Source: an uncultured Enterobacterales bacterium (GTDB lineage: Bacteria; Pseudomonadota; Gammaproteobacteria; Enterobacterales; CALYQQ01). From it: a DNA stretch of 64,000 nucleotides. The position numbers and the translations under genes were made by a program. Below, one piece after another: positions 9,767 to 17,737 of this stretch. Each line of letters begins with the position of its first letter. Positions within the stretch are counted from its first letter, which is position 1. The notes under the pieces are model-generated. The model had not been told where the DNA came from and did not search any database. It saw only the letters and a list, made by a program, of their open reading frames with translations. The stretch covers positions 83,405-147,404 of the forward strand of contig CALYQQ010000006.1 in NCBI GenBank assembly GCA_945288535.1, read 5' to 3'.

Positions 9767-10633
9767 CTACTCTTTTACGTGTAATGAAGCTGCTTTTTTA
9801 GGCCAAAGCATCATAATAAGGCCAATAATAATCATTGGTAATGACAATAATTGTCCCATGCTTATAACACCAGCAAGTAAACCAATTTGTGCATCAGGCT
9901 CACGAAAATATTCAGTAATAAAACGGAAACTACCATAACCAATAAGGAATAATGCAGTAATACTGCCGAGACGATGAGGTTTACGTTGGTAAACATTTAA
10001 TAAAATGAACAATAGAATACCTTCAAAAAATAACTGATAAAGCTGGGAAGGATGGCGTGGTAACATGCCATGCTCCATTAATGGAGCCCACATTGGATGT
10101 TCAACGATATAACGTTGATCAGCATTTATCGCCGTAGGAAAACGCATTCCCCAACTAATATTCGTAACACGTCCCCATAATTCACCATTAATAAAGTTGC
10201 CCAACCGACCAAGACCTAAGCCAAAGGGAATTAAAGGTGCAACAAAGTCCGAAACTTGAAGAAAGCGACGATGGTTACGCCAAGCAAAAATAAACATCAT
10301 GGTTATTACACCAAGTAAACCACCATGAAACGACATCCCCCCTTGCCAAACTCGGAATAAATAGAGTGGATCAGCTAAAAATAAGGGAAAATTATAAAAT
10401 ATGACATATCCTACACGTCCACCGATGAAGACCCCGATAAAACATAGGTAAATTAAGTTTTCTACTTCTTCTTTACTCCAACCACTATTAGGCTTATTAG
10501 CTCGTTTTGTAGCTAACCACCACGCAAATAAAAAACCAAGAAGATACATTAGACCATACCAGTGTAATGCTACAGGTCCGATAGAAAAAATAACTGGGTC
10601 AAAATTTGGAAAATTTAAAAAATGAGTAATCAT
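9767..10633 (-). CDS. lgt: Prolipoprotein diacylglyceryl transferase
   Basis: The 288-aa inner-membrane enzyme (E. coli 291 aa) transfers diacylglycerol from phosphatidylglycerol to the lipobox Cys of prolipoproteins. It carries the HGGLLG segment (catalytic His region), the Lgt signature [14 protein letters not shown] near residues 142-155, and about seven membrane helices. The LemA lipoprotein at 53.2 kb would be one of its substrates. It is followed tightly by thyA. In E. coli ptsP lies between lgt and rppH; here only about 120 bases separate them. Confidence 0.97.
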
Positions 10634-10753
10634 TTCTCACCATAGTATTGTTTATTTTATTGAGTACCTACTGTTTCACAGCGTATGAGAACAGTGAACC
10701 TATTCTTTTCTAACAACGATTTTATTTACATGTAAGGCGTTATCTAAAGGCTA

Positions 10754-11287
10754 TTAATTATATCGTTTACGGCGGTTACGTCCCATCATTGTAGATCGCT
10801 TATTTGGTTCAGATAAGTTAAATACAATATGTGAAAACTCTTTCATCACTCGCCGGTAAACATCTCGTTTAAAAGAAACAACTTGTCTTACCGGATACCA
10901 ATAGCTAACCCATCGCCAATCATCGAATTCAGGAATTGGCGTTCGTTGCATATCAATAGCATCGTCACTAACATCTAATTGTAATAAAAACCATTTTTGC
11001 TTTTGCCCAATACAAACAGGTTTAATATCCCAACGCACTAATCTTTTAGGTAGTTTATAGCGTAACCAATTTCTCGTCGTTGCTAATACTTTGACATCTT
11101 TTTTTCTTAAACCTACCTCTTCAAAAAGTTCGCGATACATTGCCTGTTCCGCACTTTCGTCTTGATTGATTCCGCCCTGCGGAAACTGCCATGAGTGCTG
11201 TCCATACCGACGCGCCCATAACACTTGCCCTTGTTTGTTACAAATAATAATACCAACATTTGGGCGGTAGCCATCATTATCGATCAC
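10754..11287 (-). CDS. rppH: RNA pyrophosphohydrolase
   Basis: The 177-aa Nudix hydrolase (E. coli RppH 176 aa) removes pyrophosphate from mRNA 5' ends and so starts RNase E-dependent decay. The Nudix box is [22 protein letters not shown] at about residues 37-58. The N-terminal [15 protein letters not shown] and the [16 protein letters not shown] segment are diagnostic. The end is basic (RRKRYN). mutH lies on the other strand beyond a long noncoding spacer, as in E. coli. Confidence 0.97.
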
Positions 11288-12246
11288 CCGACTACCCCTA
11301 ATAGTTCATCTTTAATAATAAGTTAATTGTTTCATACAACGCGAACAGGGTAAACATGATAATGCAATTGCTCTGTGTTAATTTAGTGGATACAGCGTAA
11401 AATAAAGAAAACAATGAAATAAAATCTTTATATTTTAAAGCATTATTTTGAATACACCAGGTAACAAAGGTAAATATGTAGCAAAACATTTTTAATGTCG
11501 TCAAATAGAACTCATTAACTAAATGCGCATAATACCATTTATAAGGATGCCGGTGATATTGATGAATTATTGATAAACTAGCCGCGCGGTAATACTCGCA
11601 AAAGAGTAACATCATCTCTTACAGAGTTATTTTATCTTATATCATTATGACTTTTATCGTCTCATAAAATGAAATAAGCTGATTAATAGTATTTGTAAAT
11701 TTTTCATTCATTCACTTTTCCACTATTATTGTGGATAACATTGTTAGCAAACGTGTAATTATGTGTGGAAGAAATCGTAATAATACTAAAACATGGTAGA
11801 ATAATAGCCGTTAATCAATATAAATCATCATGTTACATTTTGAAGATCACTGACATACGTTTAACAATAACTCACAATTATTCTGTCTACTATCTGTTCA
11901 TAAAGAATGTTTCGCATTATATTTATTCAAAAATAGTGTGCTTCTAATACAAATAAACCAGCAAAATATCTCTATTCACAGTTATCCCAAAAAACTGTGG
12001 ATAACATAGTGTAAAAACCTGTTTATTAGTGTTGAATTTTATTTTTCCCATATTGACTTATCGTCAAAATTAATAGAAAAGGCAAGTTTTTTTCTTTAGT
12101 AATCATTATGCTGACAAATATGATGAAAAGAACGATTATCTATGCCAAGATTTACTTATCTACTTGCTCATTTTTTAACCTATTTATGTTCGTTATTTGT
12201 GATAAGCTCGATCGTTTTTTATCTAGCAATATAAAGGATCACTTTT
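11288..12246. other. Long rppH-mutH spacer with DnaA boxes; no convincing gene
   Basis: About 960 bases. Two ORFs in the track fall here: 105 aa minus at 11298-11615 and 60 aa plus at 11765-11947. Both have AT-driven composition and no recognisable motif, so I do not call them. The right half carries at least two perfect DnaA boxes and is described as a putative DARS2 element. The mutH promoter must lie near the right end. Confidence 0.6.
11730..12004. promoter_or_regulatory. Putative DARS2 (DnaA-reactivating sequence) with DnaA boxes
   Basis: Perfect DnaA boxes (TGTGGATAA, complement of TTATCCACA) occur at 11730-11738 and 11996-12004. A near-match TTATCCCAA lies at 11982-11990, facing the last box with five bases between them. 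Weaker matches are TGTTCATAA at 11895 and TGTGGAAGA at 11764. In E. coli DARS2, which promotes exchange of ADP for ATP on DnaA, lies between ygdP (rppH) and mutH, exactly this locus. DARS cores contain a head-to-head pair of DnaA boxes. I did not find convincing IHF or Fis sites by eye. Confidence 0.6.
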
Positions 12247-12933
12247 ATGCGTGTGAATTGGCAGCCTCCTGCTCCCCCTAAAACAGAAGAACAACTCATG
12301 CAACGCGCACATATTTTAGCTGGCCATACTATAGCTGAATTAGCTGAAAATGCATATTTGCCATTACCTTACGACCTAAAGCGAGACAAAGGCTGGGTCG
12401 GTATGCTATTAGAACGCTATTTGGGCGCCAATGCAGGTAGTAAACCGGAGCAAGATTTTCCTGAACTTGGTATTGAGTTAAAAACTATTCCGGTTGACCA
12501 ATCTGGTAGCCCTCTAGAAACAACATTTGTTTGTGTTGCCCCACTTACAGGAAACAGTGGTGTTAGCTGGTTAACGAGTCATGTTAGGCACAAATTACAA
12601 CGTGTTCTATGGATCCCTGTTGAAGGTACAAGGACAATTTCTTTAGGAGAACGACGAATAGGTTCACCCTTATTATGGAGCCCAACTTATGAGGAAGAAG
12701 AACAGTTACGCCGAGATTGGGAAGAATTGATGGATCTTATTGTATTAGGAAAAGTGACTTCTATTACTGCCCGTTATGGCGAAGTACTACAATTACGTCC
12801 TAAGGCAGCAAATAAACGTGTACTTACCCAGGGTATAGGTTTTAATGGAGAGCCTATTATGACGCCACCACTTGGGTTTTATTTAAAAAAGAACTTTACT
12901 TCTACCCTTTTAAAACGTTATTTTTCATGTTAA
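12247..12933 (+). CDS. mutH: DNA mismatch repair endonuclease MutH
   Basis: The 228-aa protein (E. coli 229 aa) nicks the unmethylated strand at hemimethylated GATC sites after activation by MutS and MutL. The catalytic Asp...Glu-X-Lys set is visible in [12 protein letters not shown] (residues about 70-81), preceded by [14 protein letters not shown]. An AAAGGA ribosome-binding site precedes the ATG. Its presence implies a Dam-directed repair system. It is convergent with glnE, a junction not seen in E. coli. Confidence 0.97.
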
Positions 12934-13082
12934 ATCGATAAATTTTAGCTACGATTAATTCTTTTATCGTTATCATAGAGTGAACAAAAACTAGGTGTGC
13001 TTACTTGCCTGTTCTATTGATTAACCAATATATTTTAATTAACAATTAAATATGATCTAATCAAAAGCAAATGGTAAATGCA

Positions 13083-15923
13083 TTATATCTCTAACCAGCA
13101 ATGCCAATGTTGTTTGACTAAGTTACGTATATCATTAAATTCAGTTACAGCAACTTTCTCAGGACGTTCTTGTAATGTCAGATGATGGATTTCATCACGT
13201 AAAGTTACATAAGCTGAAATCAAACTTTCAGCCTGCATGTCAGACATAATATTATAGTATGCCATCAATTCAAAAATTCGCACATTGTCTGACCAACGAG
13301 TTAATTCCGGTTGTTGATGCGCAAAGCGCAGCACTAAATATTGTGCGATAAATTCAATGTCCGTAATTCCTCCTTCATCTCTTTTTAAATCAAAATATTG
13401 TTCACGCTTCTCTGTCACTTGACCTCGCATTTTTTCGCGCATAGCAGCGACTTCCTGGCGTAGTAATATTTCTTGTCGTGGTCGGCATAAAATTTCATGA
13501 CGAAGTTGATTGAATTGGGTATATAATTGCGGATCACAATAAACCATACGTGATCGTACTAATGCTTGATGCTCCCATGTCCAAGCTTCATTACGTTGAT
13601 AATTTGCAAAAGCACTTATTGTCGTTACGAGTAATCCTGATTCACCTGATGGTCGTAAACGTGCATCAACCTCATATAACACACCAGACAAAGTCCGAAT
13701 ACTAAATAAATGGATAATTCGCTGTGTTAATCGTTGATAAAAGTGGGTTGCATTAATACTTCTATTACCATCAGTAACGCTATCCTGAGGGCTATCAATA
13801 ATAAATACTAAATCAAGATCTGAACCATAACCTAATTCAATACCCCCCAATTTACCATAAGCAACAATAGCAAATCCACGCCCTTGCCGTTGTTGAAGAT
13901 GTATAGGTTGACCATAACGTTGTATCATTTGTTGCCAAGCCATGTTTACGACAGCCTCAATAATAGCTTCAGCCAAATAGGTTAAGTGATCACTTACTTT
14001 CATCACAGGCAGGTCATCACTAATATCGGCCGCTGCAATACGCAGTAACTGTGCTTGTTTAAATTGCCGAAGAGCTTCAAGCTGTTGCTCTTCATCATCT
14101 GGAATACGAAGTAAATACTGACGAAGTTCATCTTTATACGCATCAAGCGGTAATGGTCGATATAGTGTGACTGGATCCAATAATTCATCAAGTAATATTG
14201 GATATTGTGCCAATTGCGTGGCGATCATAGGTGACGCGGCGCATAACCGAATTAAGTGAGCAAGTACTGACGGATATTCAAATAGCAGTTCTAAATAAGT
14301 TGTACGGGTGATAATACTTGAAAGTAAGTGGCATAACCGCGTTAAGATAATTGGGGCATCATGTCGCTCACAAATAAGCAAAAATAAGCGCGGCATCAGT
14401 TGATTTAAAACATGACGACCCCGCTGACCGATAGGTCGTTTTGCTATATCACGACGAAAATTTTCTATAATGATACCCATTTCTAAACAAACATTTTTAG
14501 ATAAGTTGGGCATTGCCTCGAAGAGATCTTGTTGTTCAAATTGATCAATCCATAGGCACGTATATCGCATATCCGGATAATTCTCTTCTGGTTCACAAGG
14601 ATCTTTATCGACCATATAATTAAATATGGCTCGAATATCCAGCATACGCTTATCAAGGTTTTTTTTCAGTGATGACCAATCATGAAAATCCATTCCCCAT
14701 GCTAAACGTGCTTGATCTAGCGGATCTGTTGGTAATGTTTGTGTCTGTTTATCATCAATAGCTTGCAATAAATTTTCTAAGCGACGCAAGAAAAGATAGT
14801 TCTCTCGTAATATGATAACTTGTTCATGATCCAACAGGGCTAAATGATCAATTTCATCTAATGTAGTCAATAAGGATTGCTGCTGTAATGCCTTTTCACG
14901 CCCACCTCGAATAAGTTGAAAAACCTGAACAATAAATTCTATTTCTCTTATTCCCCCCGCACCTAATTTAATATTATCATGTAAACCACGCCGACGAACT
15001 TCGCGTGCAATCATACTTTTCATATCACGTAATGATTGAATAACGCTAAAGTCAATATAACGACGAAAAACAAAAGGGCGTAAAATCTTTTGTAATTCCA
15101 AGCGATATAAATTATCAGCTTCACCAAGTATACGTGCTTTCACCATAGCATAACGTTCCCAGTCACGCCCTTGTTCCTGATAATAATCTTCAAAAGCAGA
15201 AAAATTCATGACTAATGGGCCACTATCCCCAAAAGGACGTAAGCGCATATCAACTCGATAGACAAAACCATCTACGGTTATTTGATCTAATACCTTAATA
15301 AGTTTTTGGCCTAATCGAGTAAAGAATTGGTTATTATCTAACTCTTTACGCCCACCTTGCGTTGTACCATATTCTGGATAGACAAAAATAAGATCAATAT
15401 CAGAAGAATAATTTAGTTCACTACCACCAAGTTTACCCATACCTATAATTAATAAAGGTTGTGGTATTCCTTCATGATTATAAGGTGTGCCTAAATCGCT
15501 GCTAAGTTTTTGGTATAGCCAATTTTTGCTCGCAATAATTAAACATTCCGCCAGTTCACTTAATTGGCATAAAATCTGTTGCGTAGGGTATAATTGCAAA
15601 GTTTGAGCCCAACAAATGCGAACCATAATATATTGACGAAATAGACGTAATTCACGCATTAAATCTGCTTCGGTTTGGCAAGTCTGTAAAATTATGGATA
15701 ACCACTGTTGATAATATTTTCCCTCATCAGCTTGTGGCGGTGAAGTATGAATTTTTTCTAACCAATCCGTATGACGAACCAATAATTCCCCCGCAAATCG
15801 ACTTATAGCACAAACAATCTGTGCGGCTTTACTCTCTGCATTAGGTAGTTGATCAAGTAATAATGCAGATGTCGTTTTGAGTGATACGGGCAAAGGCTTG
15901 AATACAGGCATTGGTGACAGCAT
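13083..15923 (-). CDS. glnE: Bifunctional glutamine synthetase adenylyltransferase / adenylyl-removing enzyme
   Basis: The 946-aa length equals E. coli GlnE. The enzyme adenylylates and deadenylylates glutamine synthetase under control of PII proteins. Two nucleotidyltransferase domains are visible: the N-terminal removase with [19 protein letters not shown] (about residues 170-188) and the C-terminal transferase with [16 protein letters not shown] (about 690-705). Each is followed by a GlnE helical domain. The downstream partner in E. coli, hldE, is absent. ygiF lies directly upstream on the same strand with about 30 bases between them. Confidence 0.97.
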
Positions 15924-15956
15924 AATCAGGCTCCTTTTTTCACCTTGATATCATGT

Positions 15957-17252
15957 TTAGCGTGTACGCCAAAATACCGATGTTGAAAGAGCTACTCTAA
16001 TTGCATTAGACCAATCATCTAATTTATTTTGTTGTAATTTATTTAATAATATTGACCAAGATTGGAGATATTTTTGATATTGAGACGTTGGATAATAGCC
16101 ACTAAATAAATACAAGTTAAATAATTGGCGACGTAAGAAAAGGTATTGTACGCGAAATTCCTGCTCATTTTCGATTTCACGAAAGACTTTTTTTAGTTCG
16201 CGGCCTGTACGTTCGAGCATTGTATCCGCAAAGCTTTTGAATGGCATCATAAGTTTATGTTTTGCTTTTTCATCACAAAACATTCGCCATTGTTTTAGCT
16301 GTAGATAATGTAAAAATTTTAGTTTACTTTGTAGGTATTCCTCTCGCCAAACCACATGTTCAGCTTGATCTGATTGCTGAATAAGAGACTGAACGTGTTC
16401 AAGGCATAAGCGTAAAGAATCACTTGCTTTGCGAGGTATAATACATCCCCAGACAAGCCATATCTGGCGGATTAGTGTTAAAGCAGTGAGAACTTGTTTT
16501 TTTCCGCCGTTTTGATGTTTATACCAGCATATTTCATTATGCTGCCAATGCGCTAATGCTAATTCTAATGCAGCAATAAATCCTTGTTCAACGGTGAAAT
16601 CTGATGTCACTGGTAATACCGACAAAAATGAAACCTTTAATGGTTCGGCTAAACCAATCATTTGGTAGCCTCTGAAGGCTTTACTTTGATCAAATAATTT
16701 TAATTTACCACAAGGTGCTAGTTGTTCGGCAAATGCCAATAAAGAATCAGCACTTCCTTTTATGAGTTCTAATTCAATTTCATTAATGGGTTTGTGTTGT
16801 TCACCAGATGTAATACTCCCTTGATCGTAAACCAATTCAATTTGACTATCTGCATAAACAACTAGCCAACGATGCCGGCGAAAATGTGTACTAAAAAGGA
16901 GGTGAACACCTTTGCTTAATGATTCAGGTAATTTTTCATCAGGCCATAAACTTAAGGGTAATTGTGCAATATCGGGTTTTGGTGTTTCCAGTGCAATATT
17001 GTACTCAATACGTTGAGATAATCCGCCAGTCACTTTCCCATCCGCTTTTATGGTCATTTCATACTGATTTTGATTTTGCCTTACTCTAAGTCCCATTTTA
17101 TGATGGTACAAATAGTGATCTGGCGTATCATAATACTCATTCACTAACTGTAAGGTTGATTTTTTTTCAGTTTTAAATTGAGTAAGTATATTCGGTAGGA
17201 TTTTTTCTATATTTTCACGGGCAAGTAACTTTAACTCAATTTCATTTACCAT
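15957..17252 (-). CDS. ygiF: Inorganic triphosphatase YgiF (CYTH-CHAD)
   Basis: The protein is about 431 aa. The N-terminal CYTH domain has the EIELKLLA (ExExK) motif and ..RVRQNQNQYEMTIKADG.., which bind triphosphate and metal. The C-terminal CHAD domain is helical with paired basic and aromatic residues. The family cleaves inorganic triphosphate. The ORF track starts eight codons earlier. I prefer the ATG at 17252 because GAGAAAG lies five bases before it and the E. coli protein begins at the same place (MxxEIELK). It is followed closely by glnE, as in E. coli. Confidence 0.92.
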   Translation of the reverse strand: MVNEIELKLLARENIEKILPNILTQFKTEKKSTLQLVNEYYDTPDHYLYHHKMGLRVRQNQNQYEMTIKADGKVTGGLSQRIEYNIALETPKPDIAQLPLSLWPDEKLPESLSKGVHLLFSTHFRRHRWLVVYADSQIELVYDQGSITSGEQHKPINEIELELIKGSADSLLAFAEQLAPCGKLKLFDQSKAFRGYQMIGLAEPLKVSFLSVLPVTSDFTVEQGFIAALELALAHWQHNEICWYKHQNGGKKQVLTALTLIRQIWLVWGCIIPRKASDSLRLCLEHVQSLIQQSDQAEHVVWREEYLQSKLKFLHYLQLKQWRMFCDEKAKHKLMMPFKSFADTMLERTGRELKKVFREIENEQEFRVQYLFLRRQLFNLYLFSGYYPTSQYQKYLQSWSILLNKLQQNKLDDWSNAIRVALSTSVFWRTR

Positions 17253-17737
17253 TTTAACTTTCTCAATAAATTGCAACTGACCTATAGTAAAAACAAAACC
17301 CTTTTTGTTTTTTGTTACTTATAAAAAGTGTTTTATGATTAATCTTTGTATAGTGTGTTATGTCTAATATTCTAAATCACAACGTTGTAATTATACCGTA
17401 AAATAATAACGATGTATTGACTAACCTGGCGTAAAGTTAAATCAATTAATCAAATTAACAAAGGTAAATTATCACCACAACAGTAGAATGCTTTCCTTAA
17501 TACAGAAAAAGTAAATTAATAGTGAATATCATTGATCTGCGTTATATTCAGCCTAATTAGTGCTACATTAAGGCTTTCTTCTTTTATCACAATATGCTAA
17601 AGATATATTAAATTCTAAGATATCATTGGGTTACTATGTATTAACATAAAAATAGAACCTCCTAGAAATGATTTTTACTATTGTACCTTTAAATCAAACC
17701 TTCTACTATTTTGTAATATAATTCTTATGGGAAATAA
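17253..17737. other. Divergent spacer ygiF / ygiM
   Basis: About 485 AT-rich bases between divergent genes. It should hold the promoters of ygiF-glnE and ygiM-cca. I see no RNA gene or strong hairpin. Confidence 0.5.

Follow-up and report, generated by a model that had tools for sequence, protein, structure and literature searches.

A central question raised by the 959-bp spacer between rppH (ygdP) and mutH is whether a reduced, AT-rich Enterobacterales genome (29 contigs, 2.52 Mb) retains there the DnaA reactivation site DARS2, which in Escherichia coli lies in the same spacer. In E. coli DARS2, boxes I and II bring ADP-DnaA molecules together head-to-head, whereupon ADP is lost; box III and DiaA assist this loss, the site depends on IHF (IBS1-2) and Fis (FBS2-3), and ATP-DnaA bound to box V and the weak boxes beside it provides a feedback by displacing Fis (PMC4245941, PMC8682772, PMC10380432). 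An initial annotation of the window, by which we mean the whole stretch of 64,000 nucleotides analysed, had placed a putative DARS2 at 11730-12004 on account of two perfect DnaA boxes and a facing near-match in a long noncoding spacer. Both perfect boxes (TTATCCACA, 11730-11738 and 11996-12004, minus strand) are indeed present, and near-matches face each of them: CTATTCACA (11972-11980, 8/9) and TTATCCCAA (7/9) precede the right box and TTTTCCACT the left one. An ORF of 105 aa within the spacer (11298-11615) was rejected as a gene, being probably spurious and having no Pfam match. The surrounding gene order at 9767-17276, with names taken from translations, differs from that of E. coli in that ptsP is absent between lgt and rppH and that glnE and a ygiF-like gene lie downstream of mutH. 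The organism could not be placed with a tree of MutH and RppH (support 0.335).

Table. Features of the rppH-mutH spacer and related sites elsewhere in the genome (window positions unless a contig is given; offsets are from the start of the core)
Feature	Position	Strand	Sequence	Remarks
rppH (ygdP), flanking gene	10754-11287	-		NUDIX, PF00293
DARS2 core, boxes I/II/III	11716-11750	.		9-5-9-3-9 layout, as in E. coli (L119:1844-1878) and 84/84 relatives
DnaA box I	11716-11724	+	TTTTCCACT	8/9; outside the initially annotated interval
DnaA box II	11730-11738	-	TTATCCACA	9/9; faces box I head-to-head across a 5-bp spacer
DnaA box III position	11742-11750	-	TTGCTAACA	6/9, eroded; 3 bp past box II
IHF-site candidate, counterpart of E. 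coli IBS2	11823-11835	-	TAACATGATGATT	1 mismatch to TAAnnnnTTGATW
Fis-consensus match, candidate	11885-11899	.	GTCTACTATCTGTTC	0 mismatches to GnnYAnnnnnTRnnC
Fis-like match	11914-11928	.	GCATTATATTTATTC	1 mismatch; adjoins box V remnant
Degenerate DnaA box V	11923-11931	+	TTATTCAAA	offset 207
Right-hand cluster	11982-12027	.		31/35 conserved columns
Cluster box	11982-11990	+	TTATCCCAA	7/9
Cluster box II'	11996-12004	-	TTATCCACA	perfect
Cluster box	12008-12016	-	TTTTACACT	
Cluster flank	12018-12027		CCTGTTTATT	
mutH, flanking gene	12247-12933	+		PF02976
DARS1-like core	C2:138343-138367 (L136)		TTATCCACT, TTATCCACA, TAATTCACA	~430 bp upstream of uvrB
datA-like DnaA-box pair, downstream of queG	C6:81086-81255 (L137:5087-5256)			2.2 kb left of window

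The spacer was compared with those of 84 relatives, comprising 80 named Enterobacterales genomes, three genomes of other families and E. coli. A column was counted as conserved when it was the same in at least 85% of the relatives, and expected counts were derived from base composition. The E. coli core was located with the published core-deletion primers (PMC4585315) and the double box TTCTTCACAactCTATCCACA known from ChIP-seq (PMC11317965). These primers and the alignment place the window core at 11716-11750 and rule out the box at 11996-12004 as a member of it. The initially annotated interval thus contains box II and a box of the right-hand cluster but misses box I, the site beginning at about 11716, 14 bp further left; likewise, the two perfect boxes that had been taken as one site are both real, but the second belongs to the right-hand cluster and not to the core.

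From left to right, the core consists of TTTTCCACT, 5 bp, TGTGGATAA (box II), 3 bp and TGTTAGCAA (box III position), and the head-to-head arrangement of boxes I and II (8/9 and 9/9) has the same spacing as in E. coli and all 84 relatives. Box I scores 8/9 in every relative and its ninth base is never A, neither in the window nor in any relative scored, most of which carry TTATTCAC followed by T, C or G. Box II scores 7-9/9 among the relatives, mostly 8/9 as in E. coli, and is perfect in only two of them, whereas it is perfect in the window. The core block retains 20/28 conserved columns, compared to 8.3 expected; box II retains 7/7 and box III 5/7. The box III score of 6/9 is the lowest among the 85 spacers, relatives showing 7-9/9 and E. 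coli 8/9. A shifted box III (TGTGGAAGA, 11764-11772, 8/9) was considered and rejected as no better than chance. Box III is required for full in vitro activity of E. coli DARS2 (PMC4585315), and its poor score here weighs against the assignment.

Could such matches arise by chance in an AT-rich spacer? The density of single boxes would allow it: the window contains six copies of TTATNCACA (5.4 expected), and TTATCCACA occurs 47 times genome-wide, compared to 49 for the reversed control, with no enrichment. Perfect-box density, which the initial annotation had offered for comparison with unrelated spacers, equals the background in both window and genome counts and was therefore discarded as evidence, but close pairs are informative. 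Four pairs of TTATCCACA at most 300 bp apart exist in the whole genome (0.26 expected, P ~1.5e-4), and they fall only at replication loci, namely the mioC-mnmG spacer (oriC), the dnaA promoter, the region downstream of queG (datA-like) and the DARS2 spacer. Furthermore, a search of the 2.52 Mb genome with the core pattern YCAC-6N-TGTGGATAW-3N-TGT gave two exact matches (~0.005 expected), the window core and C2:138343, of which only the latter, upstream of uvrB, is independent because the window core was already known when the pattern was written. Together with geometry, synteny and column conservation, these counts make a chance origin of the site scarcely conceivable.

The match upstream of uvrB aligns with the E. 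coli bioD-uvrB spacer, which is the DARS1 locus, and all three of its boxes are intact. No bioD adjoins it; the ORF on its other side resembles a Cof-type phosphatase. The window site has the core box geometry of E. coli DARS1 in common, but differs from it in lying at the DARS2 locus and in having a DARS2-specific IHF candidate and right-hand cluster.

Beyond the core, the order core, IHF site (here a candidate), Fis region, box V (here a remnant) and right-hand cluster is that of E. coli DARS2. The IHF candidate starts 107 bp from the core start, compared to 109 bp for E. coli IBS2 (L119:1953-1965, minus strand), which has the same orientation and likewise one mismatch. About 0.6 one-mismatch sites are expected by chance in the searched interval. 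The site is IBS2-like, and all three conserved columns of the IHF block are retained. A consensus search between the core and the Fis region of the window found no IBS1-like site. In E. coli, the gap between IBS1 and IBS2 as located here is 3 bp, in agreement with PMC4245941.

FBS2-3 are essential in E. coli DARS2 (PMC4245941). The perfect Fis-consensus match of the window can be regarded only as a candidate because it does not coincide exactly in position with FBS2-3 of E. coli. To the left of box V, 4 of 7 conserved columns in the Fis region are retained, which is not significant and weighs against the assignment (P ~0.08, column P values being guides only, since the relatives share ancestry and the columns are not independent). 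A complete loss of the Fis module is not claimed, as Fis consensus matches persist. GATC is absent from the Fis region and right-hand cluster, unlike in E. coli, and the window spacer is ~270 bp longer than the E. coli spacer, on the rppH side.

Box V, taken in E. coli as the perfect TTATCCACA at L119:2055 with numbering as we understand the published text, is a perfect TTATCCACA at 210-213 from the core start in 83 of the 84 relatives. No intact box V is found at this place in the window, where the degenerate TTATTCAAA stands instead, with 7/10 conserved columns of the block retained. The spacings of the IBS and box V are altered by 2-4 bp in the window, which was counted against a DARS2 assignment. 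In E. coli, spacing shifts of 5 bp impair DARS2. Box V and the neighbouring low-affinity boxes, which mediate negative feedback, are conserved in only part of the species according to PMC8682772, and this feedback element is dispensable for activity in E. coli (PMC4245941). A conserved element, GTCAAGGCTGTAAATGGAAACAGT, lies between box V and the right-hand cluster in E. coli (L119:2118-2143) and in relatives; in the window, the GTCAAG-CTGTAAAT element retains 7/21 columns, which is the chance level. An annotated E. coli gene, ygdT (L119:2039-2185), overlaps box V and extends into the right cluster of DARS2, but may not be a real gene because it has no Pfam match.

Of all modules of the site, the right-hand cluster is the best preserved, with 31 of 35 conserved columns retained compared to 9.9 expected, and its layout (TTATCCCAA, TTATCCACA and TTTTACACT, 9-5-9-3-9) is a copy of the core layout. 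It was found in the spacers of all 84 relatives at a near-fixed distance from the core start, 316 bp in 69 of them, 314-318 bp in 83 and 296 bp in one; that box II' scores 9/9 in 84/84 relatives is by construction, as TTATCC-7N-CTGTGGATAA was required of the cluster. The distance in the window is 266 bp, compared to 316 bp in E. coli, and with box V at 207 this implies that the stretch from box V to the cluster is shorter by ~50 bp. The E. coli counterpart (L119:2150-2194), with the CCTGTTTATT flank shared by the window, shows 213-fold DnaA enrichment by in vivo ChIP-seq, among the strongest peaks, compared to 199-fold and 78-fold at the two peaks attributed to the double box of the core (PMC11317965). 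The strength of this binding and the conservation of the cluster would fit a site that now serves mainly to bind DnaA through 11982-12027, for titration or transcription control, rather than nucleotide exchange. We consider this quite improbable, since it leaves the retained box I-II core and the IHF candidate unexplained and nothing in the analysis indicates that the site influences how mutH or rppH is expressed. On a plasmid, E. coli DARS2 remains active when its right half is removed (PMC4245941). In the main text of the DARS2 papers cited, we found no reason given for the conservation of this cluster. The role of a module so strongly conserved and yet dispensable in E. coli plasmid assays is thus a testable question.

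Core and right-hand cluster are both present in all 84 relatives scored, including Photorhabdus, Xenorhabdus, Proteus, Morganella, Sodalis, Serratia, Yersinia and others, and the window shares both modules with them while having neither the perfect box V nor the cluster distance that almost all of them show. DARS2 homologs were previously reported in several such groups (PMC8682772, PMC4245941). Upstream of mutH in one small genome (G041, 1.1 Mb; L022), the DARS2 core was not found, the best boxes I and II scoring 13/18, and DARS2 seems to have been lost there; it is present in another genome of the same family (G017).

Collectively, position, the geometry of boxes I and II, the distance of the IHF candidate, the right-hand cluster and the presence of genes for DnaA, Fis, IHF and Hda make it very likely that the window site is an ortholog of E. 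coli DARS2, in a divergent form of this known control site. The identity originally proposed is supported: neither of the two observations that the initial annotation named as refuting it was made, since boxes I and II and the right-hand cluster align across 84 spacers and close pairs of perfect boxes fall only at oriC, the dnaA promoter, the datA-like site and this spacer. The genome encodes Fis (98 aa), IHF-alpha, IHF-beta, HU, SeqA, Hda and DnaA. By analogy with E. coli, boxes I and II would each carry an ADP-DnaA monomer, the two meeting head-to-head, IHF would bend the DNA, Fis would assist, although the dependence on Fis is uncertain here, and ADP would be released; apo-DnaA would then depart and rebind ATP, and the level of ATP-DnaA would be raised ahead of the next initiation. 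Because boxes III and V are eroded, DnaA binding at the core of this copy is probably less tight, and negative feedback by ATP-DnaA weaker, than in E. coli DARS2.

The same erosion could indicate a decaying remnant, in which the exchange activity of the core is gone or very weak and DnaA reactivation is carried by the DARS1 upstream of uvrB. The poor box III, the degenerate box V, the ~50 missing bp and the GTCAAG-CTGTAAAT element at chance level would all fit such a remnant, as would the DARS1-like core with its three intact boxes. On the other hand, boxes I and II, which are essential in E. coli, are retained, box II even in perfect form, and the IHF candidate stands at a nearly unchanged distance, so that we regard decay as possible but rather unlikely.

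The DARS2 ortholog is also close to a second, probable DnaA-binding locus. The pair of boxes downstream of queG has a spacing of 161 bp, compared to 162 bp for the pair at the E. coli datA locus (queG to tRNA-Gly genes), and its double box, TTATAAACAgagTTATCCACA, agrees with the one known from datA of E. coli, TTGTAAACAgagTTATCCACA (the latter from PMC11317965), for which reasons it is named datA-like here. Similar pairs, 165 bp apart, exist in two other genomes. The tRNA-Gly genes that adjoin E. coli datA do not adjoin the pair in the window genome. It shares a contig with the DARS2 core (C6:95120), at a distance of only 14 kb, whereas the E. coli map positions of datA (94.6 min) and DARS2 (64.0 min) differ by ~30 min (PMC4585315). 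A check of the contig sequence between the two loci found no long, nearly identical repeats of the kind that would hint at a misjoin, which makes misassembly a less likely cause of this closeness. The arrangement is not unique to this genome, the distance between mutH and queG being 7-170 kb in several other families too, and it need not disturb function, given that initiation stayed near normal in E. coli when datA was relocated near DARS2 or vice versa (PMC5010248).

It is tempting to speculate, though we hold it unlikely, that DARS2 has been rewired here, with the ATP-DnaA/Fis feedback lost (box V, perhaps FBS2-3) and the site leaning on a strengthened box II and the right-hand triad, 14 kb from its antagonist datA; if so, activating and inactivating sites would be copied almost together. 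More generally, the sites described here suggest that a reduced, AT-rich Enterobacterales genome has kept DnaA reactivation sites where E. coli has DARS1 and DARS2. The DARS2 copy, in which boxes I and II, the IHF candidate and the right-hand cluster are kept and boxes III and V are eroded, may serve as a natural experiment on which parts of DARS2 matter.
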